Made by a program: the position numbers and the translations under genes | In this document: in pieces, positions 3,435 to 27,148 of the stretch | How positions within the stretch are numbered: the first letter of the stretch is position 1 | Layout of the letters: each line of letters starts with the position of its first letter | Notes under the pieces: model-generated | Told to the model about the DNA's origin: nothing | The model's input: only the letters and a program-made list of their open reading frames with translations | Database searches by the model: none | NCBI GenBank assembly: GCA_949358305.1 | Contig: OX442320.1 | Coordinates: 7,146,259 to 7,210,258, forward strand | Length of the DNA: 64,000 nucleotides | Direction: 5' to 3' | DNA from: Strigamia acuminata | Taxonomy: Eukaryota; Arthropoda; Chilopoda; Geophilomorpha; Linotaeniidae

Positions 3435-3563
3435 TTGCTCCAAAAACGGTTCACGGAAAGAGGAAGACGTTTGCGAAGTTTTTTCCTTTCTAATTAAAAG
3501 AAAAGAAGAACACAAGGTGGAACAGAACGTTCGACAGAAAAGGCTTACAGAAAAGAACACGAA

Positions 3564-5900
3564 ATGGCCGACGCAATATCAGCTGGATCTCTAAATCGTA
3601 TAGAATTATTGAGTATTCGTAACTATTTCGTGTGGCAGTTTAAAGTCGGGGCACTATTACGAGCAAAAGGCTTGACGAGCGCGGTTACGGACGATGAGCC
3701 GGAGAAACCGATTCAAGGAGCACCCGATTTTAAGGCTAAGGAAGCCATTTACAATACCTGGGCGAAAAGCAACAGTGAGGCCGTGGGAATTTTGGCATTG
3801 ACCATTTCGGACGAAGAAGCTACGAACTGCCTGAGCATGACGAGTGCGAAGGTTATGTGGGAGCATTTGAAGACGCAACATGCAGGGGTGACTGTGGAAA
3901 AGCAAGTTGACGCCAGCGCTCAACTCACAGGTTTGAAAATGCGCACGGACGAATCCGTAGATCAATATATTAATCGGGCAAGGGCTATCCAAGCCAAGGC
4001 GAAAGCAGTCGGACGCGACATCCCGGATCGGGAAGTGATACTTTACGCCGCAAAAGGATTGTTGCCCAAATACCACCCAATTGGACGTGATTATCGCTCG
4101 CGACTGGATGCGAAATTAGAAGATCTGCGCACGGGTCTGCTAATCGAAGACCAATGGGCGCCGCCGAGTGGTGCAGCAAGCGCTTCCGCCACCCCCGTCG
4201 CTTTCAAAGCTCAAGCTAGTAAAAATTCGGGCGGGAGAAAATTTCGTGATGGGAATAAGAGAGCGTGTTTTGAGTGTGGCAAAACGGGCCACATAGCGAA
4301 AAATTGTTGGATCCGTTTCCCGGAGAAGCGTCCGAAGCCACAACAAAAGGAAACGGCCAAGCTCGCGTTGGGAACGCCATTACAGCATGCGTACGTCGCC
4401 ACTCTTGAATACGCAATGGGTCCACATGCGGAACGATTAACGCCAGCGCGCGAAGAGACGCGACATTACGCGCTAGTAGTCGATTTTGATGGGAACAACT
4501 CAACAAAATCCAATTGGATTCTGGATTCGGGCGCGTCGTCGCACATGTCGTGCCACCGTGAATGGTTTTCAACGCTGGAGGAGTTTGAGGCAACGGTAAC
4601 TACAGCTAAGAAGGGGACAGAGTTATTAGCGAAAGGAAAAGGGCAAATCGTTATTAATTGCCGTTTGCCGGATTCGACACAAAAAAGAATTACTTTGCTA
4701 CAAGTACTTTACGTACCGGAATTAAAAGGAAACCTGCTGTCAATTCCTAAATTGACATCCAAGAAACGCCAAGTGCTGTTCGGTGAGCACAAGGTGGACA
4801 TTTTTGACCCGACTGGGGAACTCATCGCGCAAGGTAACAAGCACGGAGACATGTTTTTCTTGGAAACGCGCGAAGAAGAAAATGCGACGACAGCACGTGA
4901 GAACGTAGTCATGACGGAGAAGGAGCTGTGGCACGGACGATTGGGTCACGTTAACGAGAAAACGCTTGACGAAATGCACAATGGTGAGATCGTTTATGGC
5001 ATAAAATATAAGCACGAACAACTGCCGAAATGCGCGTCTTGCGTCTGCGGAAAAATGTCCAAGGCGCCTTTTAAGCGCATCAAAGAGAAGCAGTCTCAAA
5101 AGGTTCTGGATTTGATCCATGCGGATTTGGTGGGACCTTTTCAAGCGCCGTCCCTGTTGGGCTCGAGATATGCGATGGTCCTGACGGATGACTTCTCAAG
5201 AAAAAGGTTTATTTATTTTTTGAGGAAAAAATCAGAAGCATTAGGCTATTTCAAGATTTTCAAAGCTTTAGTTGAAAAACAAACGGGAAAGGCACTTTGC
5301 AGATTGCGAACGGACAACGGAGGAGAATTCACAAGCGGGGATTTTCGTGTTTTTTGCGAAGAGAACGGAATAATGCACGAGCTCACAGTTCCATACAGCG
5401 CAGCCAGCAATGGAATTGCTGAGCGTTCAAACCGAACGCTGGTTGAAGCAGCTAGAACGATGTTAATAGACTCGAAAATGCCATTGCGTTTTTGGGCAGA
5501 AGCTTTAGCAACGGTTGTTTTTATCAAAAATCGCACGTTGACCAAACCAAATGGTAAAGTCGTTGCGGAGGAGATTTGGACGGGACGGAAGCCATCCGTC
5601 GGTTTTCTTCGCACTTTTGGATGTTCTGCGTGGCTGCACGTGCCAAACGAGCAGCGCAAGAAACTCGACAGCAAGGCACGAGAAGGCATTTTTGTCGGGT
5701 ATTCAGCTGTGCGCAAAGCGTATCGAATTTTCATTCCCGAAATTAACGACGTGGTCGAAGGTAGATCGGTTGTTTTTGACGAGGGAGTTCGCGGAGCCAA
5801 ACTACTCGACACAAACCGGCAGAAAACGGGAAATTCTCACGACATGGACGAGGGGAACGGCCCGCCGGTGAACACAATTATTGAGGATCCTATCGATTAA
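3564..5900 (+). CDS. Copia gag-protease-integrase
   Basis: 778 codons from ATG at 3564. In order: a gag/UBN2-like region (residues about 1-200), a CCHC zinc knuckle (CFECGKTGHIAKNC, about 237-250), an aspartic protease with the DSGASSH active site (about 318), an integrase zinc domain (HGRLGH ... CASCVCGK), and an integrase core with D, D and E in HADLVGPF, RTDNGGEF and AERSNRTL. The frame stops at TAA 5898-5900, but the same frame continues without another stop into the reverse transcriptase. Copia elements normally make one polyprotein, so this stop is most simply a point mutation (CAA to TAA is possible). Confidence 0.92.
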   Translation: MADAISAGSLNRIELLSIRNYFVWQFKVGALLRAKGLTSAVTDDEPEKPIQGAPDFKAKEAIYNTWAKSNSEAVGILALTISDEEATNCLSMTSAKVMWEHLKTQHAGVTVEKQVDASAQLTGLKMRTDESVDQYINRARAIQAKAKAVGRDIPDREVILYAAKGLLPKYHPIGRDYRSRLDAKLEDLRTGLLIEDQWAPPSGAASASATPVAFKAQASKNSGGRKFRDGNKRACFECGKTGHIAKNCWIRFPEKRPKPQQKETAKLALGTPLQHAYVATLEYAMGPHAERLTPAREETRHYALVVDFDGNNSTKSNWILDSGASSHMSCHREWFSTLEEFEATVTTAKKGTELLAKGKGQIVINCRLPDSTQKRITLLQVLYVPELKGNLLSIPKLTSKKRQVLFGEHKVDIFDPTGELIAQGNKHGDMFFLETREEENATTARENVVMTEKELWHGRLGHVNEKTLDEMHNGEIVYGIKYKHEQLPKCASCVCGKMSKAPFKRIKEKQSQKVLDLIHADLVGPFQAPSLLGSRYAMVLTDDFSRKRFIYFLRKKSEALGYFKIFKALVEKQTGKALCRLRTDNGGEFTSGDFRVFCEENGIMHELTVPYSAASNGIAERSNRTLVEAARTMLIDSKMPLRFWAEALATVVFIKNRTLTKPNGKVVAEEIWTGRKPSVGFLRTFGCSAWLHVPNEQRKKLDSKAREGIFVGYSAVRKAYRIFIPEINDVVEGRSVVFDEGVRGAKLLDTNRQKTGNSHDMDEGNGPPVNTIIEDPID

Positions 5901-7700
5901 CAACAGGACGTTACGGATGACCAACCGGATGACCAACCGGATGATCAACAATTACCGACTTGTGACGAGCCAGCACGCATAGTTGGACGACCGAGGGGAG
6001 CCACAGCTGAAGCGGTGACGCAGCGACACGAAGAGGGAAAACGTGAACGTGAGCAGCAACTGCTCGCTTCAGGTGTGCGGCGCTCGCAACGCCTGGCGGA
6101 ACAAAACGAGGCGGCGAATGTCGTTGGAGAAGAGACAAGCGAGCTGTTCACGCCAGAGACGTTTGACGAGGCTATTAATTGCCCTGATCGCGACAAGTGG
6201 CTCGATGCGATGACAAGCGAGATGGATTCCTTGCACGTTAATCAAGTGTGGAAACTGGTCAAACGCCGGGCAGGAATGAGGACAATAAGATCCAAATGGA
6301 TCTTTAGAATCAAATTCAACGCGGACAAGAGTATTAGTAAATACAAGGCACGTTTAGTAGCAGTCGGATGTGCACAACGGCCGGGCATCGACTTTACGGA
6401 AACTTTTTCGCCAGTCGTGCGGATGGAGTCCTTACGTATTATATTATTTTTGGTGGCCACGTTAGGACTAAAGACAAGACAATTTGACGTAAAGACGGCA
6501 TATCTTTACGGGGATCTAGAAGTTGACATTTACATGGACCAACCCGAAGGTTTTTTAGAAGAGGACGATGCAGTATGCAAATTGGAGCGGAGTCTGTATG
6601 GATTACGCCAATCCGGCCGATGCTGGAATAAGCGCCTAAACAGCGAACTTGTAAAATTGGGTTTGACACCAATTGCGGATGACGCTTGCGTCTACATTTA
6701 CGTGGAAAGGGACGGAATGCTTATTTTAGGAGTTTACGTCGATGATATTCTCGCCGCTTACTCTGACGACCGGACGCTCGAATGGCTGTTGACAGGGCTG
6801 AAGAAAGTTTTTGAGATAGTGGAACTGGGGGAGGTGCACTATCTGCTCGGGATGCAGATCCAAATCACGGCGGAAGGTGTTTGGGTCGGCCAACAAAAAT
6901 ACATTGATCAAATACTGGATACTTTTGATCCGGATGACCGCAGCAAAGCTTACACCCCCGTGGTGGTAGGACAAGATTTGGATGTTTTTGAAGAGTCTAA
7001 GGAGGTCGAGCAGCGCATCTACCAAAAGATTTTGGGCTCTATCATGCACCTAATGATAGTCACGAGACCGGACATATCGTTTGCGGTCAGCAAACTGTCG
7101 ATGTACTCGCGCGATCCGCGTGAAGTTCATTTTCGTGCAATCAAGCGCGTCCTGAGTTACATCAAACGAACCAGGAATTTTCGATTGTTTTTCCCATCCG
7201 AGGGTGGAAGCGTTGTTGGATACACGGATGCGAGCTGGTGCTCCACAAGGAAGGCAAGATCCTTTTCGGGGATACTGGTCATGCTAGGCCAGGCTCCAAT
7301 TTGTTGGAAAACCAAAAAGCAAAACCTTGTGGCATTATCCTCCTGTGAGAGTGAGGTCTTAGCCATGTGTGAACTTCTCAAGAGTTTGAAGTGGGTGCGG
7401 AGCATCCTGTGCAGTCTGGGGCAGGGAGCATTCGTCCCGCAAAGCATCCCGATTTACACGGACAGCACGGCGGCGATGGACGTGCTAAGTGGGTCCAACC
7501 AGCACGGGAGGACCAAACACATCAACCGCCACTTGATGTTTGTGCGGGAGGACGTCTACTTGGGAAATATCCATTTGATTCATATGCCTTCAGAAATTCT
7601 GGCAGCAGACTTTCTCACCAAGGCGGTGCCAGCAGAGAAGATCAACGCGAGTCGTGAAGCAGTAGGACTCAAAGAGCTTGGAGAGGCTGAGAAGAAGTAG
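5901..7700 (+). CDS. Copia reverse transcriptase-RNase H, downstream of the in-frame stop
   Basis: This is in the same frame as the gag-integrase part; the first ATG is at 6015 (561 codons). The reverse transcriptase runs from about KSKWIFRIKFN to the catalytic YVDD (YVDDILAA). RNase H follows with GYTDASW, SSCESEV and IYTDSTAA, and ends with the copia-typical KHINRHL block. Directly after the stop is a short tandem repeat of GATGACCAACCG units (5917-5944) in the linker. It cannot be made as part of the polyprotein unless the stop is read through. Confidence 0.92.
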   Translation, partial: QQDVTDDQPDDQPDDQQLPTCDEPARIVGRPRGATAEAVTQRHEEGKREREQQLLASGVRRSQRLAEQNEAANVVGEETSELFTPETFDEAINCPDRDKWLDAMTSEMDSLHVNQVWKLVKRRAGMRTIRSKWIFRIKFNADKSISKYKARLVAVGCAQRPGIDFTETFSPVVRMESLRIILFLVATLGLKTRQFDVKTAYLYGDLEVDIYMDQPEGFLEEDDAVCKLERSLYGLRQSGRCWNKRLNSELVKLGLTPIADDACVYIYVERDGMLILGVYVDDILAAYSDDRTLEWLLTGLKKVFEIVELGEVHYLLGMQIQITAEGVWVGQQKYIDQILDTFDPDDRSKAYTPVVVGQDLDVFEESKEVEQRIYQKILGSIMHLMIVTRPDISFAVSKLSMYSRDPREVHFRAIKRVLSYIKRTRNFRLFFPSEGGSVVGYTDASWCSTRKARSFSGILVMLGQAPICWKTKKQNLVALSSCESEVLAMCELLKSLKWVRSILCSLGQGAFVPQSIPIYTDSTAAMDVLSGSNQHGRTKHINRHLMFVREDVYLGNIHLIHMPSEILAADFLTKAVPAEKINASREAVGLKELGEAEKK

Positions 7701-8295: not shown

Positions 8296-9765
8296 ATGCA
8301 CAAAACCAACATGCAATACATCTTGGCTGCTTCACTCCTGATTGCTGCAGGTGAGAAAATTTATTAGACAGTTTTTAACGTCTAATTTCATTATTTTGTA
8401 GCAAACTGCGCATTCGGACAAGACATTTGTCCCTTGTATTACTCTCCACTCTGTGGCAGTGATGGCAAAACCTACTCCAACAAATGCTTCTTCCAAGTCG
8501 CCCAAAAAACCAACTCTGATCTCTCGATGGTATCTAAAAATCCGAATCGCGAATTTACGAATCGAAACTAACATTTGAAATTACCTAAACAGAAACATTT
8601 GGGCGCGTGCACAACCAAACGAGCTGCGATTGGCGAAAAAATGATTATCTGTCCCTTGTATTTCTCTCCACTCTGTGGCAGTGATGGCCAAACCTACTCC
8701 AACAAATGTTTCTTCCAAAAAGCCCAAAAAAACATCTCTGATCTCTCTATAGTATGTAATAATCCGAATCGCGAATTTACGAATCGAAACTAACCTTTGA
8801 AATTCTCTAAACAGAAGTACTACGGAGTGTGCAAGACCAAACGAGACGTCAGCGACGACGAAAGCGACGACGACTGTCCCGAGTACAGCAAAAACGGGAT
8901 CTGCACTCTCGAATATTCCCCCGTATGCGCGAGTAACGGCCAAACATACAGCAACAAATGCGGCATGTGTGTCGACATGTACAACCAAAGAAAGGAGGGC
9001 AAACAGGCGAATTTCCGAGTAATGCATCCCGGAAAATGCGGCTCACTCGATTACTGTTTACCCATAGATAAATCGGGCGCTTGCACGGACGAATTAATGC
9101 CGGTTTGCGGTAGCGATGGCGTCACGTACCCCAATCGATGCAACTTCTGCTTCAGTAAAAGCCAGAAGGAAGCGAAGGGAGAAGAGATGTCGATGGAGTA
9201 CGTCGGGGAATGTCTAAATTGTCCCGCAATGAGCAAACAGGGCGCTTGCCCGAGAAATTACGCGCCGGTTTGCGCTAGCGACGGCAAAACGTACGGAAAT
9301 TTGTGCATGTTATGCGCGGAGAAGTACAGGCAACAGAACCAGGGCACAGGGTTGGGTTTGAGGATGCAACACGAAGGCGCGTGTAAATTTGAAGCCACTT
9401 TGTACAGCGCGGAGTTCTGCAGACCCGAGTGGAAAAGCGGAGTGTGTACGCGAGAGTACAACCCGATCTGCGGCACGGATGGCGTTAGTTATGGCAATCC
9501 ATGCACGTTCTGCTACGCGATGTTTGAGAAACAGGCTAAGGGGAATGATATTAGCGTGAGACGTGAAGGGCCGTGTAAGGATGAAGATAAACTCGTCTGT
9601 CCGAAGTCGGTGGAGAATGGAATCTGCACGATGGAATATTCGCCAGTCTGCGGTTCGGATGGGATCGTGTATCCGAATAAATGCTTTTTCTGCATCGCGC
9701 AAAAGGAGAAGTTGAAGAATGGAGTCGAGTTGTATTTCCATCATTTGGGCAAATGTTATGTTTGA
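8296..9765 (+). CDS. Secreted serine protease inhibitor with seven Kazal domains (gene B)
   Basis: Exons 8296-8350, 8402-8529, 8593-8751 and 8815-9765 give 430 residues, identical in architecture to gene A. Most of exon 4 is nearly unchanged, while exon 3 and the start of exon 4 differ more ([19 protein letters not shown] against [19 protein letters not shown]). P1 residues read L, L, L, D, R, R, M: domain 4 has aspartate where gene A has tyrosine (CTDELMP against CTYEYMP), so that loop has probably changed target or lost activity. Domains 1-2 again lack the fifth cysteine. AATAAA is at 9796. It is the right-hand product of a tandem block duplication. Confidence 0.9.
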
Positions 9766-9801: not shown

Positions 9802-10111
9802 AATGATTGTGGATTAATTTGATGGATATTGTGAGTTTTCTCGAAATAATGACACTGGATTTAGAAACATAATGGCGGCCATGTTTATTCGCAGTCAGCA
9901 GAAGAAGGAAAGATACATTCGAGATTATGATGAAAAAACAAAATCAAAAAGACCTGGAAAATGAAATAAAAATTCCGAGATGATTAATTAGTCTATTAAA
10001 GTTTGATTTATGTGAATGTGAATAGATATTGCACTTGAACAAACAAATAATGTCTCTAATGTTTATGCAACGTATTGCTACGCGAATCCAAACAGTTTGT
10101 TTTAGATCGTC
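9802..10111. other. Spacer with a dispersed repeat upstream of the 3-domain Kazal gene
   Basis: No gene. About 9990-10050 (ATTAAAGTTTGATTTATGTG ... GAACAAACAAATAATGT) resembles 17031-17090 upstream of the RdRP gene, so a diverged repeat of about 60-80 bp occurs in both places. Confidence 0.5.
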
Positions 10112-10807
10112 ATGCAATGCAGCGTGGTTCGAAGCGCTTTAGCTCTTTTAGCTGTTGGTGAGGAAAATTTCAACTTTTATCTTATTTTTTTTTTATCTTT
10201 TATAATAACAAACATGTTTTTAGTGAGTTGTACGCCGGTAGCGGATGATTGCACTTCGGATGATTTCAAAAATAGTCAAAACGGACTGTGCTCACTCGAG
10301 TACGCTCCCGTATGTGCGAGTAACGGCAAAAGCTATGGCAATAAATGCGAAATGTGCGATGAAATGTATAGACAAAGAAAGGAGAGTAAATCTGTGGGTT
10401 TGCGAGTAGTTCATGCCGGTAAATGTGGTTCGTTTGACTACTGCTTACCGAGCGATGAATCTGGCGCGTGTACGGAAATAAACGAACCAATTTGCGGCAG
10501 CGATGGGAAAACCTACGGTAACCGGTGCGTATTTTGCAACTATAAATACTCGAAAGGAACAAATGGAGACGAGCTGTCAATGGAACACTTTGGGAGATGT
10601 TTAGGATGTTCTGATTTGAGCAAACGTGGTATCTGCCCTGAAACTTACTCGTCAGTTTGCGGTAGCGATTTCAGAACGTACGACAACTTGTGCTCGCTGT
10701 GCGCAGAAATCTACAGGCAGAAGAGCGAGCGCATTTACTTGAGTTTGACGCTGCAGTTTGAAGGCGATTGCAGAAACTACATTGCACTTTCTAAACTTAT
10801 GAAATGA
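10112..10807 (+). CDS. Secreted three-domain Kazal inhibitor
   Basis: Exons 10112-10157 and 10224-10807 give 209 residues. The 66-bp intron (GTGAGG ... TTTTTAG) has no stop and keeps frame, so an ORF caller reads through it and adds 22 spurious hydrophobic residues. Spliced, exon 1 plus the start of exon 2 form a clean signal peptide ([18 protein letters not shown]). Three six-cysteine Kazal domains follow, most like domains 3-5 of genes A and B. P1 residues are L (CSL), E (CTE) and E (CPE). Acidic P1 in two domains suggests a Glu-specific target or loss of inhibition. Confidence 0.85.
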
Positions 10808-11445: not shown

Positions 11446-12405
11446 ATGTTTGCAGTAACGTTCATTTCGCTCGCTGTAGTTTGTGCAATTACTTTCGGTA
11501 AGATTAACATAAACAGGTGTTTTAATCATTTCAAAACCTCCAATTAAGTGTTTTCAACCTTCTCTAGATGGCAGCACCGCATTGGATTGCTCCAAATTGG
11601 TTTGCCCATCAATTTGGAACCCTGTATGTGCCAGTGACGGCAATACATACGCCAGCGAATGCCACATGAAAACGGCGCAATGTTTGAACCCAAAATTGAC
11701 AAAAGTAAGAACTTTTTACATTCCCTAACAATTTCTAATGTCTAAAAAATTCGGAAACATTTTAAGGAACACTCAGGGTCGTGTGATCAATCATATTTAA
11801 ATCCGGGTTGCACCGAAGAGATATTAAAAATCGAATGCACCGAGGACGAATTCCCATTATGCGCTACAAACGGAGTAACGTACGGTAATCCGTGCAAATT
11901 TTGCAAAGCTCTGTACGCACTGAAACAATTTGGCATCGAATTAACTGTAAAACACTTGGGAAAATGTGGGTTTGAGTTCGAGGCACCCATGTACTACGAA
12001 GAAGCGTTTTGTAACGACGATGAGAAAAATCAAGTTTGTTCGAGCGAAGAATATTCGCCATTTTGTGCGAGTAATGGCGTAACGTACAAAAATAAATGCC
12101 TGTTTTGTCATGCGATGGCAAATGAAAATTCGCTGGGTGTGGAAATCGAAGGTGAATGTCCCGGAAATTCACACTGTAGTTCGGCGGAGTTGCAGGGCCC
12201 ATGCGCGGATAATTATTTGCCGGTTTGTGGCAGTGATGGCGTCACTTATGCGAATAATTGCGAGAGGTGTGCCGAAATGAGCAGACGACAAGAACGAGGA
12301 GAAAACATCTTTATTTATAACAAATATAAAGGTTAGTGGGTTTAACTTGTACATCCATTAATTTAATTTATTCTGTTGTATTTTCTAGGAGCGTGTCCGA
12401 AATAA
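11446..12405 (+). CDS. Secreted four-domain Kazal inhibitor
   Basis: Exons 11446-11497, 11568-11704, 11767-12331 and 12389-12405 give 256 residues. Exon 1 encodes a signal peptide (MFAVTFISLAVVCAITF). Domain 1 (exon 2 and the start of exon 3) is the shorter arthropod type; domains 2-4 are the longer type shared with the other genes here. P1 residues are S (CPS), E (CTE), S (CSS) and D (CAD), so no domain has the basic or large hydrophobic P1 of a classic trypsin or chymotrypsin inhibitor. The last exon is only 17 bp and completes the final cysteine (GACPK). A 33-bp piece of exon 3 survives at 1616-1648 in the other half of the duplication. Confidence 0.85.
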
Positions 12406-17379: not shown

Positions 17380-18762
17380 ATGGATAAAATACGATTGCAG
17401 TGGATGATATCATCGGACGATGACCATTGGACCTACAATAACGTCAATCTCCGTCAACTACAACGCGATTGCAAGCAGAAAATCAAGTGTTTGTGGATCC
17501 GCCAATCCGGCATCACTCTGGGTTTGATTGACAAACACAACAACCGCATGCTGCAAACCAACGACGTCTCAAAATTCGCGCTGGCCAATTTCTCCGAATT
17601 CAAACTGGCGGACCAACCGATGTCCAAAACAACCGAATACATTGAAAAATTCCTGAAAACCGGAATCACCATCAACGGCTCGACCTATCGCTTCTTCGGG
17701 TGCTCAAACTCGCAGCTAAAGACGAAAACGTGCTATCTTTACGCAGCAACTTTCCCTCAAATCACCAAAATGATCGACTCGATGGGATCCTTCAGCAACA
17801 TGAACTCCGTCGCGAAAAAGATGAAGCGCATTGGCTTGTTGTTTACGTCGACGGACGTCGGCATCGAGTTGGAACCGAGCGAATACGAAGACATCGACGA
17901 CATCGAGGGCGACAATGGCGACGTTTTCACCGACGGTTGCGGCTTTATTACGACAAAATTCGCCAAATACATCGCGAGGCAGATGAAAATCACGTTCCGG
18001 AACAAGAATTACGTCCCGTCCGTCTTCCAAATACGGTACAAGGGCTACAAAGGAGTCGTCGTGCAGAACAAGGGCTTGAAAGGCCAATTCAAGGTCCAGT
18101 TGCGCAAATCCATGAAGAAATTCAACGGTTGCGCAGATAATTCATTTTCGGCCAAAAACCACTCGATGCCGTACTCTTTCGGCAATTTAAATGCCGAATT
18201 GATCACGCTGCTCTCATCTTTGGGCATCAAAGACGAAATTTTCTTGAAGAAACAAAAGGAATACTTTGAGTTTATTCGACTATCGACAACCGACGTTTAC
18301 GTTGCATTCGAGTTCTGTTGCTACAAAAACAGAATAGATTTGGCGGAAATGATCGTCAACGACGGATTGACGCCGAAAATTTAACGACAAATCAAGAAAC
18401 TGCAAACGGACGAATGGAAATGCGTCACGCAGACGTGCGACGACGAAAAGAAGAAGAAAATCCGAATTTTCGTCCCGGATTCGCGTCTTTTGTTCGGGGT
18501 TTGCGATCCGTCGGGGAAATTGAAGGAAAAGGAAGTTTTCGTTCGAATTTCGACCGAGGGGTCGGTAAAGACCATCGAGGGAGCCGAAATCGTGGCGAGT
18601 AGGAACCCTTGTCTTCATCCGGGAGACATCCAGAAATTCAAAGCGGTCGATATCAAGGAATTGAATTATTTGCACGACGTTGTGGTGTTTCCGGTGGTCG
18701 GCACCAGGGCGGCTGCGTCGTTGCTATCGGGTGGGGATTTGGATGGCGACAAATTCTTCGTT
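17380..18762 (+). pseudogene. RdRP-helicase fusion gene, 5' part: RNA-dependent RNA polymerase catalytic region
   Basis: 461 codons of cellular (RNAi-type) RdRP without introns. Conserved blocks include FTDGCGFI (about residue 186), PSVFQIRYKGYKGVV (about 211) and the catalytic LLSGGDLDGDKFFV; DLDGD is at 18736-18750, residues 453-457, the metal-binding aspartates of the double-psi beta-barrel. These enzymes copy RNA to make double-stranded RNA for Dicer or secondary small RNAs. Two lesions exist: an in-frame TAA at 18382-18384 (codon 335), with the same frame open on both sides, and a DIRS element inserted after GTT 18760-18762. The N-terminus is short for the family, so upstream exons are possible. 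A functional product from this copy is unlikely. Confidence 0.9.
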
Positions 18763-18784
18763 CACTCTTAGTAATCTCCGGCTA

Positions 18785-18818
18785 AACAGGAGATGGCGCT
18801 ACTAGTCGGGTTACGTCA
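18785..18818 (+). repeat. Left inverted terminal repeat, core of DIRS element
   Basis: 34 bp that are the exact reverse complement of 23477-23510. The outermost 24 bp on the left (18761-18784) differ from the right terminus, as usual for DIRS elements whose extreme ends are templated by the internal complementary region. Confidence 0.85.
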
Positions 18819-18975
18819 CTTCCGGTTCTACTAACGGGTTGCGCGGTCAGGTTCGAATTGCTCTACAAGAAAAATTTGCTTTTATATCGTTTTTTCCCCT
18901 TTTTAATTAAAGGATCTCATATTTTCGAACACCTTTCTAATAATTGTTTCTTTATTAGTTTTATAACATTCTATT

Positions 18976-21900
18976 ATGAATTCCCAAGTTATGATTACCG
19001 ATTCTGGATTCCCTACTTTGAACGACCACGTGGTCCAAAATCTCCAAAATGAGGAGGTCCACGAACCTAACCACGAAGAAGAGATCGTAGAAGAGCCACC
19101 TTCGCCGAGAAGGATGCAAAATAGGATCGAATGTCTAGCCAACACTGTGTACGAGCTAAAAGACATAATGCAAAATTTGCTAACTGCGAAAACGGTCGTC
19201 GTTTCGCCGCAGAACACCGCGATGGCTGGGCCAGGTGCTGTACCTACCCCAAAAGCCACTGACGGGACAACTTCGTTGTTGAACCCCGCAATCGCAGTTC
19301 CCCTTGTCGTCACAAGCAAGCCAGTTGACGGTTCAACGGCTCCGACTCCAGCAACCAAAGTTGGTTTTTCGGATGTTTCGAAACTTTTGGGCGCCGAGAC
19401 CAAGTTTGGCGACGCCTGGCCCGCCGAATTAGAGGCTTTGGTAAGCAAATCGCTTTTTGAGACCTCGACGGAATTTAGGGATCAATTAGTTGAAAAGCTA
19501 ATAATCCCTGAAAACGCAAAATACTTGGACCCGCCTAAAGTGGACGGCACTCTGTTTGGAGAAGTGCAGCCTTGGATAAGGTCGAGAGACACGACGTCTC
19601 TAAAACATCAAAAGCTCGTTTTGAAAGCTTACATTCCGCTTGCTTCGGCAATGAAGGACGTAGTGGCGGGAAATTTGGACCCCAATTCACTGGTCATCCA
19701 CCTGGCCGAGGCCATGACGCTGCTGGGCGCAATGAATACGGCGCTAACGTTACGCCGACGTCTGGACTTCGCGGACTCGCTCGCACCTAGATACAAGCAG
19801 TTTGCAAAAGGGAAGGTTGTTTTCCCATCCGACCTGTTTGGCCCGGATTTGTCGAAGCAGATCAAAGAATTCGACGAATTAAAGAAGGTTACTTCCAAGG
19901 CCACTTTTGATAAAGCCGAAAATCGCAAGTCCGACAGGGACAAGAATTACCGCCGCTTCCACCCGTACAATAGGTACGATAATAAATACGATTACAAGCG
20001 CTCAGACAACTCAAGAAGTTTCGATTTTAAGCGCCAAAATAGTATGAACATTGTTTGTTCTAATCCTGTAACCGAGTTTACTAATTCCGATTCTCTTTGC
20101 AGATCGGGGGAAGAACCAGCGCGGGAAATCCTACAAGAAGTAGCGACAGAATCACCTGTAATTGAAAATGAAAATGTAAGAAATAAAGAGTTGTTCTTTA
20201 ATTTACACATATCGCATCTGTCCTTTAAGCCAGGGAATTTACAATATTACTTGCCTGTTTGGCGTAAGATCACATCCAATCCTTTTGTATTATCTGCCCT
20301 GTCGGGCATAAAATTCGATCTAAATTTCGACAAGCTCGTTCACGTTAAAAGAACGGAATATAGAATGAAACTGAGCGAAACTTCTGCAATTTCCCAAGCT
20401 GTGGACAAGCTTTGCCTGCAAGGCATAATTAAACAGGTCGCCCACGTTGAAGGCGAATACTTAAGTCCAATTTTCGCCGTCCCCAAGCCGGACGGATCTG
20501 TACGGATAATTTTAAATCTAAAAAAGTTCAACGAGAGCTTAGAATATCTCCATTTTAAAATGGCCTCGCTTAAAGATGCGATAAACCTTATGAAAAAGGG
20601 TCAATTTATGTTTAAAATCGACCTCACTAACGCCTTTTATTTGTTACCAATTAAAAACGAATTTAAGAAATATGTACGTTTTTTGTGGCAAGGCCAGTTA
20701 TACGAATATCAGGTAATGCCAATGGGCTTGGCAAGTGCCCCACGGACCTTTACTAAGGTTATGTGCCCTGTTTTTTCCGAGTTGAGGACTTGGGGGATTT
20801 GCGGAATCCCTTATTTGGACGACGGAATTTTTCTGTGTGATTCCTTTTGCGAGGCTAAAAACGCCTGTATCGACGTAATAAATTTTTTTCAAAAATTAGG
20901 CCTCTGCATTAACTGGGAAAAATCCGAATTTATTCCCAAAACTAGAATAGAATTTTTAGGATTAACACTAGACTCTAGAAAAATGGAAGTGTCACTTCCA
21001 GAAAGGAAAATCGTAAAAATAACTAAGCTAGCTTCACGCCTTCTCCAATTGGAGAATTTCTCTATTCAGGATTTGGCCATTTTTATTGGCAATTTAGTTT
21101 CCGCCGAGCCAGCGCTTTCTGACGGTTTTTGGAACATAAAGCCCCTGGAATCTTTCAAAACAGGACAGTTGTTCCTTCATGACCACAACTATAATACTTT
21201 AGTTAAAAATTACCCCGACATCAAGGCCGAATTGTCTAGATGGACTAAATTAGAAAATTTCTCCCCCAAAGATCTAAACCGTCGCGATGTGGATACGGAG
21301 GTTTTCACCGACGCCTCCAATTTGGGTTGGGGAGCCAGTTGGAACTCCCGCTCTGCAAATGGCCAGTGGACAGCTGAGGAAAATGATTTTCACATTAATG
21401 TCAAGGAACTTTTGGCCCTCTGGTTCGCCTGGAAGGTTTTTGCCCCCTTTGACGGCAAAAAACACGTTTTGTTTCATTCCGACAGCTCCACAGTAGTGAG
21501 CGTGTTCCGGAACCAGGGCAGTAAGGTCCAGCAACTCCACCATTTTGGTAGACTAGTGTGGGAAGATTCCCAAAGATTAAATATTGACCTTTCAGTAATT
21601 CACATTCCCGGCAAGGAAAACGTTATGGCCGACTATCTGTCGCGTAATTTTTTAACTACGGATGGGGAATGGAGCTTATCTCCAAAAATGTTTAATAAAT
21701 TAAAATCCCTATTCGGACTGCCCGAGATTGATCTGTTTGCTACGAGATTAAACCATAAATTACCAAAATATTTTTCTTGGGGCCCTGACCCCTTCGCTTA
21801 CAGGATAGATGCGTTCTCCCATTCTTGGAAAGAAACTTTTGCTTACGCCTTTCCTCCTTTTTGTTTAATTTCTAGGATTTTACAAAAAATCCGCCAGGAT

Positions 21901-22260
21901 CAAGCCACGGTACTTCTAGTAGTACCAAAATGGACCTCACAAGCGTGGTTTGTACCACTGTTGGACTGCTTGGTCGCAGTACCAGTGTCCTTTCCGGCCC
22001 CAGAACATCTGATGTTGGTTCATCAACCAGAGGCCCAGTTTCCTCTCCAGGCCCTGCAGCTCCTTGGCTGCAAAGTCAGTGGAGTGACCTCATCGCAGGA
22101 GGCTTTTCGCCGGACGCTGCCAACTTGTACTCGGCCGGGTGGAGATCGACAACTGTCAGAACGTACACGGCGGGAATTAAGAGGTGGACGGAATTTTCTG
22201 GTGAAGGGTCACCTTATTCCAATCCACTCCCTCCCAGTCTTGACCCAAACTATCGTTTAA
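18976..22260 (+). CDS. DIRS gag-like, reverse transcriptase and RNase H polyprotein
   Basis: 1,094 codons. The N-terminal 380 residues are gag-like: an acidic start, then a basic arginine/tyrosine-rich tail near RFHPYNRYDNKYDYKRSD. The reverse transcriptase follows with SPIFAVPKPDGSVRIILNL, FKIDLTNAFYLLP and the catalytic YLDD (PYLDDGIF). RNase H has VFTDASNLGWGASW, NVKELLALW and HSDSSTVV. The C-terminal stretch from EIDLFATRLNHKLPKYFSW matches the region downstream of RNase H that is typical of DIRS polyproteins. The 3' end overlaps the recombinase ORF in another frame by about 330 bp. Confidence 0.92.
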   Translation: MNSQVMITDSGFPTLNDHVVQNLQNEEVHEPNHEEEIVEEPPSPRRMQNRIECLANTVYELKDIMQNLLTAKTVVVSPQNTAMAGPGAVPTPKATDGTTSLLNPAIAVPLVVTSKPVDGSTAPTPATKVGFSDVSKLLGAETKFGDAWPAELEALVSKSLFETSTEFRDQLVEKLIIPENAKYLDPPKVDGTLFGEVQPWIRSRDTTSLKHQKLVLKAYIPLASAMKDVVAGNLDPNSLVIHLAEAMTLLGAMNTALTLRRRLDFADSLAPRYKQFAKGKVVFPSDLFGPDLSKQIKEFDELKKVTSKATFDKAENRKSDRDKNYRRFHPYNRYDNKYDYKRSDNSRSFDFKRQNSMNIVCSNPVTEFTNSDSLCRSGEEPAREILQEVATESPVIENENVRNKELFFNLHISHLSFKPGNLQYYLPVWRKITSNPFVLSALSGIKFDLNFDKLVHVKRTEYRMKLSETSAISQAVDKLCLQGIIKQVAHVEGEYLSPIFAVPKPDGSVRIILNLKKFNESLEYLHFKMASLKDAINLMKKGQFMFKIDLTNAFYLLPIKNEFKKYVRFLWQGQLYEYQVMPMGLASAPRTFTKVMCPVFSELRTWGICGIPYLDDGIFLCDSFCEAKNACIDVINFFQKLGLCINWEKSEFIPKTRIEFLGLTLDSRKMEVSLPERKIVKITKLASRLLQLENFSIQDLAIFIGNLVSAEPALSDGFWNIKPLESFKTGQLFLHDHNYNTLVKNYPDIKAELSRWTKLENFSPKDLNRRDVDTEVFTDASNLGWGASWNSRSANGQWTAEENDFHINVKELLALWFAWKVFAPFDGKKHVLFHSDSSTVVSVFRNQGSKVQQLHHFGRLVWEDSQRLNIDLSVIHIPGKENVMADYLSRNFLTTDGEWSLSPKMFNKLKSLFGLPEIDLFATRLNHKLPKYFSWGPDPFAYRIDAFSHSWKETFAYAFPPFCLISRILQKIRQDQATVLLVVPKWTSQAWFVPLLDCLVAVPVSFPAPEHLMLVHQPEAQFPLQALQLLGCKVSGVTSSQEAFRRTLPTCTRPGGDRQLSERTRRELRGGRNFLVKGHLIPIHSLPVLTQTIV

Positions 22261-23063
22261 CGCTCATCAATACCGCAAATTTCATCGCCTCAAGATTCAA
22301 TGAAGGCTTGTCACACTCCTCCATTTCGGGAAGTTTAGCGGCCATCACCGCCGCAGGCTTCATTGACCCGTCAATTAGAGCTGATGATCGTATCGCCCGA
22401 ATTCTAAAAGGAGTTAATAATTTAAGGCCGAACTTACCACGTTATGTGGCCACTTGGGACGTGGGCCTAGCTCTGAACGCCCTGCGAAAACTCTGGCCGC
22501 ATGATGATCTCGATTGGAGACAACTCCAAGAAAAACTGCTCATGCTGCTGGCTTTAACAACTGCTGCCAGGGTCAGCTCGCTGCAAAGTTTTAAAATTTC
22601 GGAGATGACAGTCTCAACTGACGCGGTCATTTTCAACCCGAAAACTTTACACAAGCATTCTCGTGTTGGACACCATACTGTATTTCGAGTGGCCCCTTAT
22701 TTGCAAGAACGGGCCATCTGCCCTTTCAAGGCCCTGATGGATTTTTTGGCCAAAACAAATCCGTTACGCAAGGACGATGGTTTGTTCTTAAAATTACAAC
22801 CACCCCATGCCGCACCTACCAAAGATACTGTGCGACGATGGATTAAGGATTTTTTAAAAAAGATCGGCGTCGGTCAAGAGTTTGGTGCTCATTCGACGCG
22901 AGCTGCGGCCACCAGCGCAGCCGCCAGTGTTATTCCGGTACAACAAATATTAGGTGTTGCCGGTTGGACCTCCGAACAAACATTCGCGAGGTTCTACAAC
23001 AAAACAATTGTCAACCACAATGCTTTTCAGGAATCAGTCCTAAACAGACCAATTCCAAAATAA
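21930..23063 (+). CDS. DIRS tyrosine recombinase
   Basis: 377 codons, with a short non-homologous N-terminus inside the overlap with the polyprotein ORF. The core carries the catalytic set: arginine in TTAARVSSLQ, HxxR in AHSTRAAATS, tryptophan in GVAGWTSEQTF and the nucleophilic tyrosine in FARFYNK. It integrates the circular DNA copy into the host by site-specific-like recombination, which is why there is no target duplication. All residues are intact. Confidence 0.93.
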   Translation: MDLTSVVCTTVGLLGRSTSVLSGPRTSDVGSSTRGPVSSPGPAAPWLQSQWSDLIAGGFSPDAANLYSAGWRSTTVRTYTAGIKRWTEFSGEGSPYSNPLPPSLDPNYRLTLINTANFIASRFNEGLSHSSISGSLAAITAAGFIDPSIRADDRIARILKGVNNLRPNLPRYVATWDVGLALNALRKLWPHDDLDWRQLQEKLLMLLALTTAARVSSLQSFKISEMTVSTDAVIFNPKTLHKHSRVGHHTVFRVAPYLQERAICPFKALMDFLAKTNPLRKDDGLFLKLQPPHAAPTKDTVRRWIKDFLKKIGVGQEFGAHSTRAAATSAAASVIPVQQILGVAGWTSEQTFARFYNKTIVNHNAFQESVLNRPIPK

Positions 23064-23160
23064 ATTCATAAATAAAAAATGATTAAACTGAAAAATTGTT
23101 AAATTTGTTTTTTCCAAAACATTTTTATTTTTATCCTATGGAAAAAAGTTACCTTTCAAG

Positions 23161-23287
23161 TCTCCTGTTTAGCCGGAGATTACTAAGAGTGAATGTAATC
23201 TCGGCTGAACGAAGTGAAGCGGAGCGAAGCGGAGCGAACGAGTGAAAGCCGATAACATTCACTCGTGTAATTGGAGGTTTAACAGGA
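23161..23287 (+). repeat. Internal complementary region of DIRS element
   Basis: 23161-23193 is the reverse complement of the left end (18761-18793); 23194-23287 is the reverse complement of the right end (23504-23597). Together they spell the circle junction, the hallmark used in DIRS replication to complete both termini. It includes a palindromic-looking GAAGCGGAGCGAAGCGGAG run. Confidence 0.92.
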
Positions 23288-23476
23288 CCCACCGACCTCC
23301 CTTGTCACAACTAAATTATCTAAGCTCCATCTAACACAAACTAATTCGTTTTCAATCACTACCTAGCGTTCTAAATGTTTAAAAATGAACGAAAATCACG
23401 CTTACCGTCAACACCGTTGATTTCGTCGACTCCATTTTGTCCTTCACTTCCTTTTTTCCAGGATAGCTTTTAAGAC

Positions 23477-23599
23477 TGACGTAACCCGACTAGTAGCGCC
23501 ATCTCCTGTTAAACCTCCAATTACACGAGTGAATGTTATCGGCTTTCACTCGTTCGCTCCGCTTCGCTCCGCTTCACTTCGTTCAGCCGAGATTACATT
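23477..23599 (+). repeat. Right terminal repeat of DIRS element
   Basis: 23477-23510 pairs with the left core repeat; 23504-23597 is present inverted in the internal complementary region. The element ends in GATTACATT, sharing TT with the target. Confidence 0.88.
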
Positions 23600-26500
23600 T
23601 GTTGGAACGAGGAATTGATACCGGAGACTTTGTTCGAGCCGTACGGATACCCACCGGCAAGGCTAGCCGTCGAAAGAGACATTTCGCATGAAAAATTGGT
23701 CAAATATTTTGTTGGGTGGAATAATTCGTCGTTGGGGAAAATCAAAAATTTGTATTTAGGTTGGTGTCGCGCGTTACCAGATGGCGCGGCATCGCCCGAA
23801 TGCCAACAACTGAATGTTTTGTTTTCGTCGGCGGTCGACGCCGAAAAAGTAACGATTCCTGACAATCTGTTGAATCCACCGGCCAATCCCGACAGGTCGT
23901 TCATAGTGGACACTTTGTGGGAGAATATGAAGAGTGAAGCGTCGTCGCGGATGCAGTGCGAGCCGGATTTAATCGCTTTGAATCCGGAAGACAACGTCGC
24001 CATGTTGTTGACGAGCGATGCGGACACTTTGAGCGATTTTGAGGTTTTTAAGTTGGTTCACGACGTTTGCATGCGAAATAACATGAAAATAAGCGATCAT
24101 TTGCGTCATTTTAACTTCGATGCATTTTCAGACGTGGAAAAAAGATGGACGATCCAAATGTTGAAAGATGTGGACAACTACAGCGATTTGGTGCTGAATT
24201 CCCTCAACAGCTCGCAGATACTAAAGCGAGAGGAACTTAGCAAACACCGACTGCACAAATCGATCAATCATTGGAAAAGGTTGTATTCGACCGAGGACGA
24301 CGGGGGACGACGGTTTGGAGTGAATTTCACGCGTTGTATGAGCGAATTTAAACGGAAATTGATTGTTTTTAAGGTGAACGACTTGCTGAAAGTCGCCATA
24401 TACATTCCGATTGTTATGTTCGAGGGCACTCACGTCGTGGACGATGCTGTGAAGGTGTTTGCGTTCACAAACGCGAAGGATGGGAACGTGGTGACGAACA
24501 CGGTCAAAGATTACAGGGTGGAGTTCAATGATAAAGTGTTTTCGTTGTATAAAACGAAGAAAAGAGATAATACTTTTATTTTTTTCGTTGTCGAAGAGAA
24601 GGGAAAGGAAGATAGAATTGTCAAGATGAGCATCGCGTTGCAGCACTTCAATCAGTCGGTGAAAAGTCACGTGGGAAAACTGCTGAAGGAGCCGTGTCGG
24701 TCGGTGGAGATTTATGCGATTTCTCATCGGGATAAAATCGGACATCAACTCGTGGATATTTCTTTGAACGACGTGGAGACGAAGAATGTGCGCAAATGCG
24801 TCGAAAACACGCCGAAGGAGTTCGAGTTTCTCGGATTGAGCGACGTTAAGTTCGACGAATATCCGGATGTTTACGAGAAGATTTTGGTTGGGAAAGAGTT
24901 TTATTTGCTCGACGGTTTGGCCGATGCGACTAATTTCGTGGAAATTTTCGAATTGTGCTACGAAACTGACGCGAAATGCGTTCTGAGCGCGATAATCGAG
25001 TATATTTTAGGGAATTCTGGGAGAATTAGCAATTACGGACTGGTTTTTGAGTCGATTTTGAATTTGATTCGACGTTTGCCGTTCGTTGCTCTGGAAGTGA
25101 GCGAATACGTTGGGAAGGAGTCGGGCGCGAGTTTGTCGGACGTGGAGTACGTTAAAGTGTTGACGGGGTTGATTAATTGTTGCAACGAATTGCCGTCGTT
25201 CGCCAGCGCGCAAATTCAACTCGTTTTGACCGTTTTGAGGGATAAATCGGTCGGGTTTTCGTTCGGCGACGTCGTTCGATTGTGTCGGACAATTTCGGTC
25301 GGAGTTCGACGTAAATCCGTCGCTGTTGAGCATTTGAAACGACTTTTGGACGATTTCAAGGATCTTTTGAGTGAAAATGACCAATTGTGCGTAGATTACT
25401 TCCGGAAGTTTGTGCTCGCGGTGTGCGTCGATTATTTGGCGGAAGTGGACGAAAACACGACGATAGACGCGAGATCGCTTCCGGTTTGCACTGGAAAAGA
25501 AGTTTTTTGTCGGAACGTGAAGCCCAGCAAAGATGTCGGCATTTATTCGGCGGAAATACGTTTGGATTTAGCGTTCAGAGTGAAAAACAACGACCACATC
25601 CGGTTCGTTTGCGCAACGGCGGCCGGAAACTCACTGGACAAGCCCATCGCGTTCGACGCCGTCGTCCAATCGGTCAAAAGGGGTTCGTTTAACTTCAAAA
25701 TCCAGCAGGAAACGCCGAACATCTTAGAAAAAGCGAGCTGGAACCTCGTCCCGTGCGCCACAACAACAAACCTGACGGCATTCCTTGACGCCATCTCGGA
25801 GTTAGTGACCAAAAGAGACGATTCGACGTCGCAATTCAACACGATAGTCGCGACGAACGTCCGAAACGAGCAAAAGTCGAAGCCCGACGACTTGACCTCG
25901 AAGTCCGCCTTGGAATTCGATTCGAACACGTTCAACGAGAGCCAGAAACGAGCGATTAACGCGGCACTGACCAACCCTTTGAGCTTGATCTGGGGTCCGC
26001 CGGGCACGGGCAAGACGACCGTGGTGGTCGAAACGATCCTTCAACTCAGCCGCGCGTTCGAGGACCTCCAGATTTTGATTTGCGCGAGCACGCACAACGC
26101 CGTGGACAATATTTTGGAGAAATTTCTTCGGGAAATGCAAAACGTGGACGACGAGCGCGTTATTCGAGTGGCGACCGAAGTGGGCAAGGTGAAATCGGAC
26201 CTCCAGATTTGGACCGTGAACGCGTTTGTCGGGAAAAACATCAACGAGGACTTCAAGGCGAAGAAAGAGGCGAAAAAAAGAGTGAAGAAGGCGAAATTTA
26301 TCTTCACGACGTGCACCGGTGCGGGATTAGGGCTGTTGCGAGACGAGAAGTTCGAGATTGTGGTCATTGACGAGGCGTCGCAGTTGACCGAGCCGAATTG
26401 TCTTCTGCCGATAGTTAAGGGGAGCAAGAAGATCGTTTTGGTCGGGGATCACGTCCAGTTGCGGCCGACGGTCACCGTGGATGCGGAGGTTTATAATTTG

Positions 26501-27148
26501 CAATTTTCCTTGTTCGAAAGGATGTATGTCGATTCGTGCGTCACTAAAACCATGTTGAATGTGCAGTATCGAATGAATCCGAAATTGGCTCAAATTGCTT
26601 CGCAAATGTGCTACGAGGGGGAGTTGCGATCGGGGGTGAGCGAAGAGGAACGGATGGTGCCGAAATGTGGTTTTGTTTGGCCGGAAAAATCGTTTCCCGG
26701 GGTTTTTGTCGAGTGTTCGGCCGATGAATCGCCTTTTAGTAAATCCAAGTCGAATGAGGGACAAGCGCAGTGTGTTGTTGATATCGTGCGGAGGTTGAGG
26801 TCGGTCGATGAGGATTGTGGGGGTGGTGGGAAGTTTTCTATCGTGGTTTTGTCGCCTTATAGTAAGCAGAAGGATTTGATCAAGGGGAGGGTTAAGAAGT
26901 TTGCGATGGTTGAGGTTGAAACTGTTGATGGGTTTCAGGGAAGGGAAGCGGATGTTGTTGTTGTGTCAACTGTGAGGAAGAATGCGGGTCGGGTTTTGGG
27001 GTTTTCTGATGATCCGAGGAGGATTAATGTGGCTTTGACTAGAGCTAAGGTCGGGTTGGTCGTTGTTGGACATAGAGATACGTTGGAGTCGTCGAAGTTG
27101 TGGAAGGATTATTTGAAATTGTTAAAGGAAGTGAATTTTAAGAAATAG
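23600..27148 (+). pseudogene. RdRP-helicase fusion gene, 3' part: RdRP C-terminus fused to UPF1-like helicase
   Basis: 1,182 codons plus TAG, one uninterrupted exon in frame with the 5' part once the DIRS element is removed. It opens with CWNEELIPETLFEPYGYPPA, the block that directly follows DLDGD in cellular RdRPs, and continues as RdRP C-terminal sequence to about 24500. A region of unknown fold and a beta-barrel-like segment (about 25480-25800) follow. Then comes a full SF1 helicase: Q motif FNESQKRAIN (about 25931), Walker A GPPGTGKTT (25994), CASTHNAVDN, DEASQ, VGDHVQLRP, QYRMNP, DGFQGREADVVVVS and NVALTRAK. The closest resemblance is to UPF1. The helicase part has no visible lesion and could be expressed separately. 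Confidence 0.92.

Follow-up and report, generated by a model that had tools for sequence, protein, structure and literature searches.

An apparently disrupted, compact fungal-type RdRP-SF1 helicase fusion gene in the genome of Strigamia acuminata

Introduction

How does a chilopod genome come to contain one coding region for both a cellular RNA-dependent RNA polymerase (RdRP) and a UPF1-like SF1 helicase, and does that region still encode a working protein? The locus lies in the window, the whole 64,000-nucleotide stretch of Strigamia acuminata DNA (contig OX442320.1) that was analysed here. Our reading, to which we assign a probability of roughly 0.8, is that this gene, intronless and now disrupted, encoded an RdRP-SF1 helicase fusion of the compact fungal type, ~1,643 residues long, with the architecture of Fgrdrp5 of Fusarium graminearum and from the same clade. 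Before the damage the enzyme would have had a role in double-stranded RNA (dsRNA) synthesis, and the gene may have been of fungal derivation.

Gene structure

We identified an intronless frame from an ATG at 17380 to a TAG at 27146-27148, encoding a cellular RdRP (PF05183) followed by a UPF1-like SF1 helicase. The features of the locus are as follows.

17380..18381, + strand: left part of the RdRP, codons 1-334 from the start codon (PF05183, E 1.1e-56, profile positions 50-300; PDB RdRP, 2.4e-26)
18382..18384, + strand: in-frame TAA, nonsense codon 335 (open reading frames; profile search of the own genome)
18385..18762, + strand: RdRP resumed in the same frame, to the catalytic DLDGD and KFFV (tblastn of fusion proteins)
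~18763..23599, + strand: DIRS-like retrotransposon within the RdRP, ends accurate to a few bases (inverted repeats; genome matches of its coding part)
18967..22260, + strand: DIRS open reading frame, reverse transcriptase and RNase H-like region (RVT_1, 1e-22; RT_RNaseH, 4.7e-4)
21876..23063, + strand: DIRS open reading frame, tyrosine recombinase (Phage_integrase, 9.2e-8)
23600..25378, + strand: RdRP tail, from CWNEELIP, and the RdRP-to-helicase region (PF05183, 8.4e-10; model pLDDT 85 for the entire C part)
25379..27148, + strand: UPF1-like SF1 helicase with a barrel-like part, to the stop TAG (AAA_11, AAA_12; Upf1)

The initial annotation described the reading frame after the element as the RdRP block that follows DLDGD and then an SF1 helicase, free of stops to 27148, and this is borne out. 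The right open reading frame has 1183 open codons (23597 to 27148) and matches the tail of the RdRP profile (positions 443-539), then AAA_11 (1.2e-46) and AAA_12 (1.1e-50). The catalytic DLDGD lies just before 18762, and helicase motifs I and II in the right frame are GPPGTGKT and DEAS. The helicase matches Upf1 by sequence (1.1e-63), with the structural match beginning at model residue 595. With the DIRS element omitted, the two parts share one frame of ~1,643 codons (461 + 1182), as also proposed. The further claim of a single reading frame holds for the ancestral gene, and fails for the present one. RdRP sequence continues in frame beyond the TAA at 18382-18384, which that annotation did not mention and which closes the left part; thus, there was one ancestral reading frame, but there is not one open frame today. 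The profile search of the own genome also shows one TAA inside the RdRP locus.

In tblastn searches of the window, 28 of 30 related proteins are collinear on both sides of the element, which excludes chance; the other two, P0026 and P0027, match the helicase side only. The window gene retains 81/84 and 107/118 of the residues that are invariant in the family, although the C part, at 0.907 of its invariants, ranks third lowest among 30 rows.

Occurrence of the fusion

Among the matches listed, 202 of the 233 collected proteins that match the RdRP core of the window gene also match its helicase core, so that the search for single proteins with both domains suggested by the initial annotation yielded a conserved architecture. 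The RdRP comes first in all 202, with the cores 701-1000 residues apart (again among the matches listed). The 233 are the collected RdRP-matching proteins among those matches, and some of the searches scored only candidates sharing most words. Carriers among the matches listed include fungi, molluscs, an anemone and the fly Bradysia odoriphaga.

The suggestion that no such fusion had been described from an animal is not supported. Databases hold fusions from Dreissena, Mya, Mercenaria, Actinostola and Bradysia, and the legend to Fig. 1 of PMC6396948 records an AAA_12 domain in an amphioxus RdRP. The fungal fusion Fgrdrp5 has already been deleted and phenotyped, according to the available text of PMC11237814. 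The fusion is an already known architecture; new here are the unusual host and the fresh loss event. In the open-licence literature, as judged by titles and the openings of abstracts, no paper was recognisable as dealing with a fusion of RdRP and helicase in any arthropod, Bradysia included.

Disruption of the gene

DIRS-like elements combine a reverse transcriptase, a tyrosine recombinase and inverted termini. The insert has all three and, like DIRS retrotransposons, an RNase H-like region; its make-up is ordinary and only its location is notable, directly after DLDGD(KFFV), inside the RdRP and ahead of its tail. Its coding part has 43 matches genome-wide, and 12 other full-length copies are 100% identical; thus, we infer that the insertion is very recent. 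Given so young an insertion, the segregation of intact and broken alleles can be tested in populations.

In the sequenced individual, full-length protein cannot be obtained by ordinary translation of the disrupted copy. Because the gene is broken here, a present function is unsupported. A profile search detected no second PF05183 locus in the 237.5-Mb assembly. A mite was considered as the host, but PMC7659050 gives 1 to 5 RdRPs each for nine Acari, and here a single broken locus was found.

Three other features of this genome are in keeping with an arthropod: contig C1 starts with TTAGG from base 1, Chitin_bind_4 has 54 matches in the genome, and mitochondrial COX1 reads through a TGA. For 7tm_6 there is a single match, right at the cut-off, which argues against a winged insect, as these have many such receptors. 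In the mitochondrial contig, cox1 abuts cox2, with no space for the tRNA that is usual at this place in insects and crustaceans.

Two other explanations of the locus can be weighed on this evidence. That two neighbouring genes, for an RdRP and a helicase, merely appear fused is very improbable. The element does part the two halves today, and in-frame ATGs in the right open reading frame (from 23927) could begin a helicase-only product, but the element boundary falls inside the RdRP, before its tail. Moreover, the collinear proteins span that boundary as single proteins, and both domains occur in the 202 collected proteins among the matches listed. We also consider it rather unlikely that the animal has a working gene and that the lesions reflect a minor allele or mistakes of assembly or sequencing. 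The good conservation of the remaining residues would fit such a gene, as would the many near-identical element copies, among which mis-joins can arise; against it, the insert has matched inverted termini and lies within a 12.25-Mb contig, and an intact second copy was not detected in the assembly. A minor or second haplotype is nonetheless conceivable.

Phylogenetic placement and origin

In the RdRP, C-part and helicase trees, which were built from hand-picked rows (C part, 49; left part, 48 of 90; helicase, 59), the gene groups with fungal and insect proteins in a compact clade, apart from the longer animal type. Support for this clade is 100/100 for the left part, 100 for the C part (a quick tree without bootstrap, in which the window gene has an odd letter composition) and 100/99 for the helicase alone. 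Placement with the animal (metazoan) type, represented by mollusc and cnidarian fusions, was rejected (p-AU 0.015). The window gene adjoins the Bradysia protein or its group (75/90; 98 in the C-part tree; 95/91 in the helicase tree), and its nearest relative by identity, among the matches listed, is P0234. Its end branch is long (0.47-0.94), and the compact clade is rooted differently in the three trees. In the helicase tree, a single origin of the compact and animal-type fusions is neither established nor rejected (p-AU 0.316).

These placements give hints, less secure than the identity of the gene, that arthropods may have acquired it from a fungus. In the left-part tree, which has a plant outgroup, the 13-row clade of the window gene groups with Basidiomycota (96/92). 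More tentatively, an arthropod lineage may have taken up a ready-made fungal RdRP-helicase silencing enzyme and retained it as its only cellular RdRP, which a still-transposing DIRS family has just knocked out. If so, the loss of a silencing gene and the spread of a transposon could be watched together in one population. There is no foreign codon signature of recent transfer: GC3 along the gene is 0.58-0.67, inside the range of the other genes in the window (0.50-0.75). A viral origin was also considered, and no encoded relative of the window C part or P0234 was detected in viral_contigs by a scan for a few exact peptides, which would miss distant relatives.

Descent is a possible alternative, to which we give a modest probability: the compact fusion would be an ancient opisthokont gene that fungi and a few arthropods retained and other lineages lost, without any transfer from fungi. 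Constraining Dikarya as one clade apart from the clade of the window gene costs 2.1 log units and is not rejected (p-AU 0.397), nor is constraining Dikarya together with the P0001 group (p-AU 0.274), and in the C-part tree the window gene, Bradysia and P0234 together branch outermost within the compact clade (85). Descent is, however, at odds with the Basidiomycota grouping, and, since other animals have a separate type, it requires either many losses or an early duplication. According to the available text of PMC6396948, patchy animal RdRP genes are usually put down to vertical descent and loss. The fungal-type fusion in Bradysia and in the present genome provides a specific candidate case of the opposite route.

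Proposed function

The original function was likely synthesis of dsRNA for Dicer-dependent small RNAs, by analogy with the fungal relative. The enzyme would have turned selected RNAs into dsRNA substrates of Dicer, and the fused helicase may have cleared proteins and structure from the template RNA; on the same grounds, unwinding may plausibly have been coupled to small-RNA synthesis. As reported in PMC11237814, antisense exonic sRNA falls from 27.3% to 18.91% when Fgrdrp5 is deleted, and 5'-U ex-siRNA of 21-25 nt falls by ~32%. Profile searches of the present genome returned only one Dicer_dimer match vs 36 Piwi matches, which counts against a Dicer-dependent role. Why a polymerase was joined to a UPF1-like motor is made testable by the fused helicase, because deletion mutants of the fungal relative survive and show a small-RNA phenotype.

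Comparison with known systems

The helicase is distinct from UPF1/NAM7, as none of the 20 families detected at E up to 0.1 is the CH domain (PF09416), and the helicase tree separates the compact clade from the UPF1 clade (100/98). Identity with ZNFX1 was also rejected: no zinc-finger family follows the helicase, and the AAA_12 match extends to residue 1187 of 1210.

The metazoan-type fusions (Dreissena P0032, Mya P0121, Mercenaria P0123 and Actinostola P0127) likewise have an RdRP and then an SF1 helicase in one protein, but they are ~1,900 aa long, carry an extra N-terminal region of >200 residues and form a separate clade. Amphioxus BL02069, likened here by its description only, is given in print as an RdRP followed by an SF1 helicase. 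Unlike these, the window gene is of the compact fungal type, with PF05183 and then AAA_11/AAA_12 in one frame (now broken by the TAA and the insert), a catalytic DLDGD, helicase motifs I and II, and membership of the clade both by RdRP and by helicase. The closest named relative among the matches listed is Bradysia odoriphaga HA402_004979 (P0236), an insect protein of compact type (1,732 aa; 47% and 35% identity) that, unlike the window gene, is intact. Fusarium graminearum Fgrdrp5, taken as FGSG_09076 (P0302), resembles the window gene in domain order and in length class (1,721 aa) and likewise belongs to the compact clade; identity is 41% across the left part and 32% across the C part. Fgrdrp5 is intact, and its deletion has a phenotype (PMC11237814), whereas its counterpart in this arthropod genome is disrupted.

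Structure of the disrupted gene

The RdRP-helicase gene in the window is split by a DIRS-like retrotransposon that begins just after the RdRP motif DLDGDKFFV (18762) and ends near 23600. The following features were identified (window coordinates).

18382-18384: nonsense TAA in the RdRP frame, left part (5' of the insert)
18761-18793 and 23161-23193: inverted repeat of the DIRS element
18771-18818 and 23477-23524: inverted repeat of the DIRS element
18967-22260: reverse transcriptase (RT) ORF of the DIRS element
21876-23063: tyrosine recombinase ORF of the DIRS element
23192-23287 and 23504-23599: perfect 96-nt inverted repeat, right end of the DIRS insert
near 23600: gene restart at CWNEELIP, open to TAG 27146-27148
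3' of the insert: RdRP tail (PF05183 profile positions 443-539)
3' of the RdRP tail, ending at TAG 27146-27148: helicase (AAA_11 and AAA_12)

The initial annotation had proposed about 1,643 codons in a single frame once the element is excluded, and a stop-free run from the element through the helicase to the TAG. Both are borne out, the latter with matches to AAA_11 and AAA_12. The TAA at 18382-18384 does not appear in that annotation; the RdRP is recognisable past it in unchanged frame, as far as DLDGDKFFV.

The 96-nt right-end repeat is longer than the matched terminal repeat of the insert, and could be a portion of the DIRS element or a second small element. The DIRS coding part has at least 43 matches in the genome (a lower bound, as 39 of 88 candidates were scored). 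Among those listed, at least 13 are full-length at 100% identity, window copy included, and 13 further are at 96-97%; the identical copies indicate very recent movement of the family.

Before its disruption, the gene looks to have been functional until recently, judging by its conserved residues and GC3. Invariant residues (the same in ≥95% of other compact proteins, the clade of fungal and insect fusions) are retained at 81 of 84 positions in the left part and 107 of 118 in the C part (RdRP tail and helicase). The corresponding fractions in the other 29 rows are 0.93-1.00 and 0.85-1.00. GC3 along the gene is 0.58-0.67, compared with 0.46-0.75 in other coding stretches of the window and 0.63 in two large Kazal exons. 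These very similar five-domain Kazal inhibitor exons (568-1539 and 8794-9765) flank a copia-type retrotransposon with two long ORFs (3498-7700); further Kazal-like exons were seen by eye at 10106-10807 and 11746-12336.

Fusion architecture and copy number

The fusion is, on comparison of protein sequences, ancestral. In tblastn against the window, 28 of 30 first-search proteins match both flanks of the element collinearly, and P0026 and P0027 match on the helicase side only. PF05183, PF13086 and PF13087 occur together in all 25 best proteins of the first protein search. Single proteins with both domains, a check proposed in the initial annotation, number 202 among the 325 listed from three pooled protein searches, the first of which was rich in helicase-only proteins; the window RdRP core is matched by 233 and the helicase core by 294. 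The RdRP precedes the helicase in all 202. RdRP-only proteins (n = 31 among those listed) include plant, tick and shorter fungal entries. Both domains are present in 92 of 116 matches listed for a Dreissena protein. Owners of the fusion include Ascomycota, Basidiomycota, Dreissena, Mya, Mercenaria, Actinostola and the fly Bradysia odoriphaga. In the Bradysia-group proteins P0235, P0237 and P0238 (1321-1345 aa), the match to the window ends at C-part residue 803. P0235 terminates shortly past GPPG of helicase motif I, which suggests an intron near this position.

The window lies at C9:7146259-7210258 of its assembly (237,517,015 bases, 157 contigs). Searches of this assembly were first-look, and very distant copies could escape them. 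PF05183 was found nowhere outside this locus (2 matches, both here; 3 candidates). P0234, the closest protein by identity, gave 19 matches: 2 at the window locus and 17 at helicase-only places. Seven of the 19 lie at C3:35368664-35482440 and C3:32637606-32637917, which may represent a local expansion of ZNFX1-like genes; ORFs were read at one locus, L020 (1390-2610 and 2902-6168), which looks like ZNFX1, with Cys-rich NFX1-type repeats coming after an SF1 helicase. Contig C157 (first 10 kb of 15068 bases, locus L018) is mitochondrial. Its genes, assigned by eye, include cox1, cox2, cox3, nad6 and nad2, consecutive on the same strand, and cox1 extends right to the start of cox2; no tRNA was identified in these 10 kb by ARAGORN run with the bacterial code. 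A fungal-type fusion as the sole RdRP detected in an arthropod, disrupted by a very young transposon insertion, may be unexpected for a specialist.

Phylogenetic placement

Separate trees cover the left part, the C part and the helicase on its own, and the halves were never joined. In the careful left-part tree (48 rows hand-picked from 90), the window gene shares a clade of 13 rows (99/92) with P0234 and the Bradysia and P0001 groups, within a 36-row compact clade (100/100); the longer animal-type fusions of molluscs and cnidarians (10 rows) are separate (100/96). The compact clade is likewise recovered in a quick tree of all 90 rows (100). The window gene joins the Bradysia group in the C-part quick tree (49 rows; 98, compact clade 100) and Bradysia in the careful helicase tree (59 rows; 95/91, compact clade 100/99); for the left part, its grouping with the Bradysia group has just 75/90. 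A topology that puts the window gene among the animal-type fusions is rejected (p-AU 0.015). A UPF1 identity for the helicase is also rejected, the compact clade being separate from CH-domain UPF1 (100/98) in the helicase tree; IGHMBP2-like rows there fall outside the compact clade, in more than one clade. By these sequence relationships the window gene is of fungal-like type.

Position inside the compact clade varies by tree. The window's clade joins Basidiomycota in the left-part tree (96/92); window, Bradysia and P0234 form the outermost branch in the C-part tree (85); and in the helicase tree the window gene is internal, with the P0001 group outermost (81/88). The data do not reject a topology in which Dikarya form one group that leaves out the window's clade (p-AU 0.397). 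Origin by transfer is the reading we tentatively favour. PMC6396948 argues for vertical descent of animal RdRPs and considers that the Strigamia RdRP, too, was probably not gained from fungi, which weighs against assuming transfer too readily.

Possible function

The authors of PMC6396948 speculate that amphioxus RdRPs, including BL02069, have a role unrelated to RNAi, a point against giving the animal proteins a simple RNAi function. For mechanism in the arthropod gene, all of whose function we infer, the best guide is the fungal relative. Fgrdrp5 of Fusarium, which we equate with FGSG_09076 (P0302) by locus-tag list and domain layout, has an RdRP domain, DEXDc at 1,277-1,478 and AAA (PF13087) at 1,475-1,677 (PMC11237814). 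According to that study, its deletion reduces ascospore discharge to 47.6% of wild type and antisense exonic sRNA from 27.3% to 18.91%, and lowers 5'-U 21-25-nt ex-siRNA by ~32%, a smaller drop than in Fgrdrp1 and Fgrdrp2 deletions. With the contribution of the helicase left open by the authors (PMC11237814), these results show that Fgrdrp5 has a share in Dicer-dependent siRNA accumulation in Fusarium.
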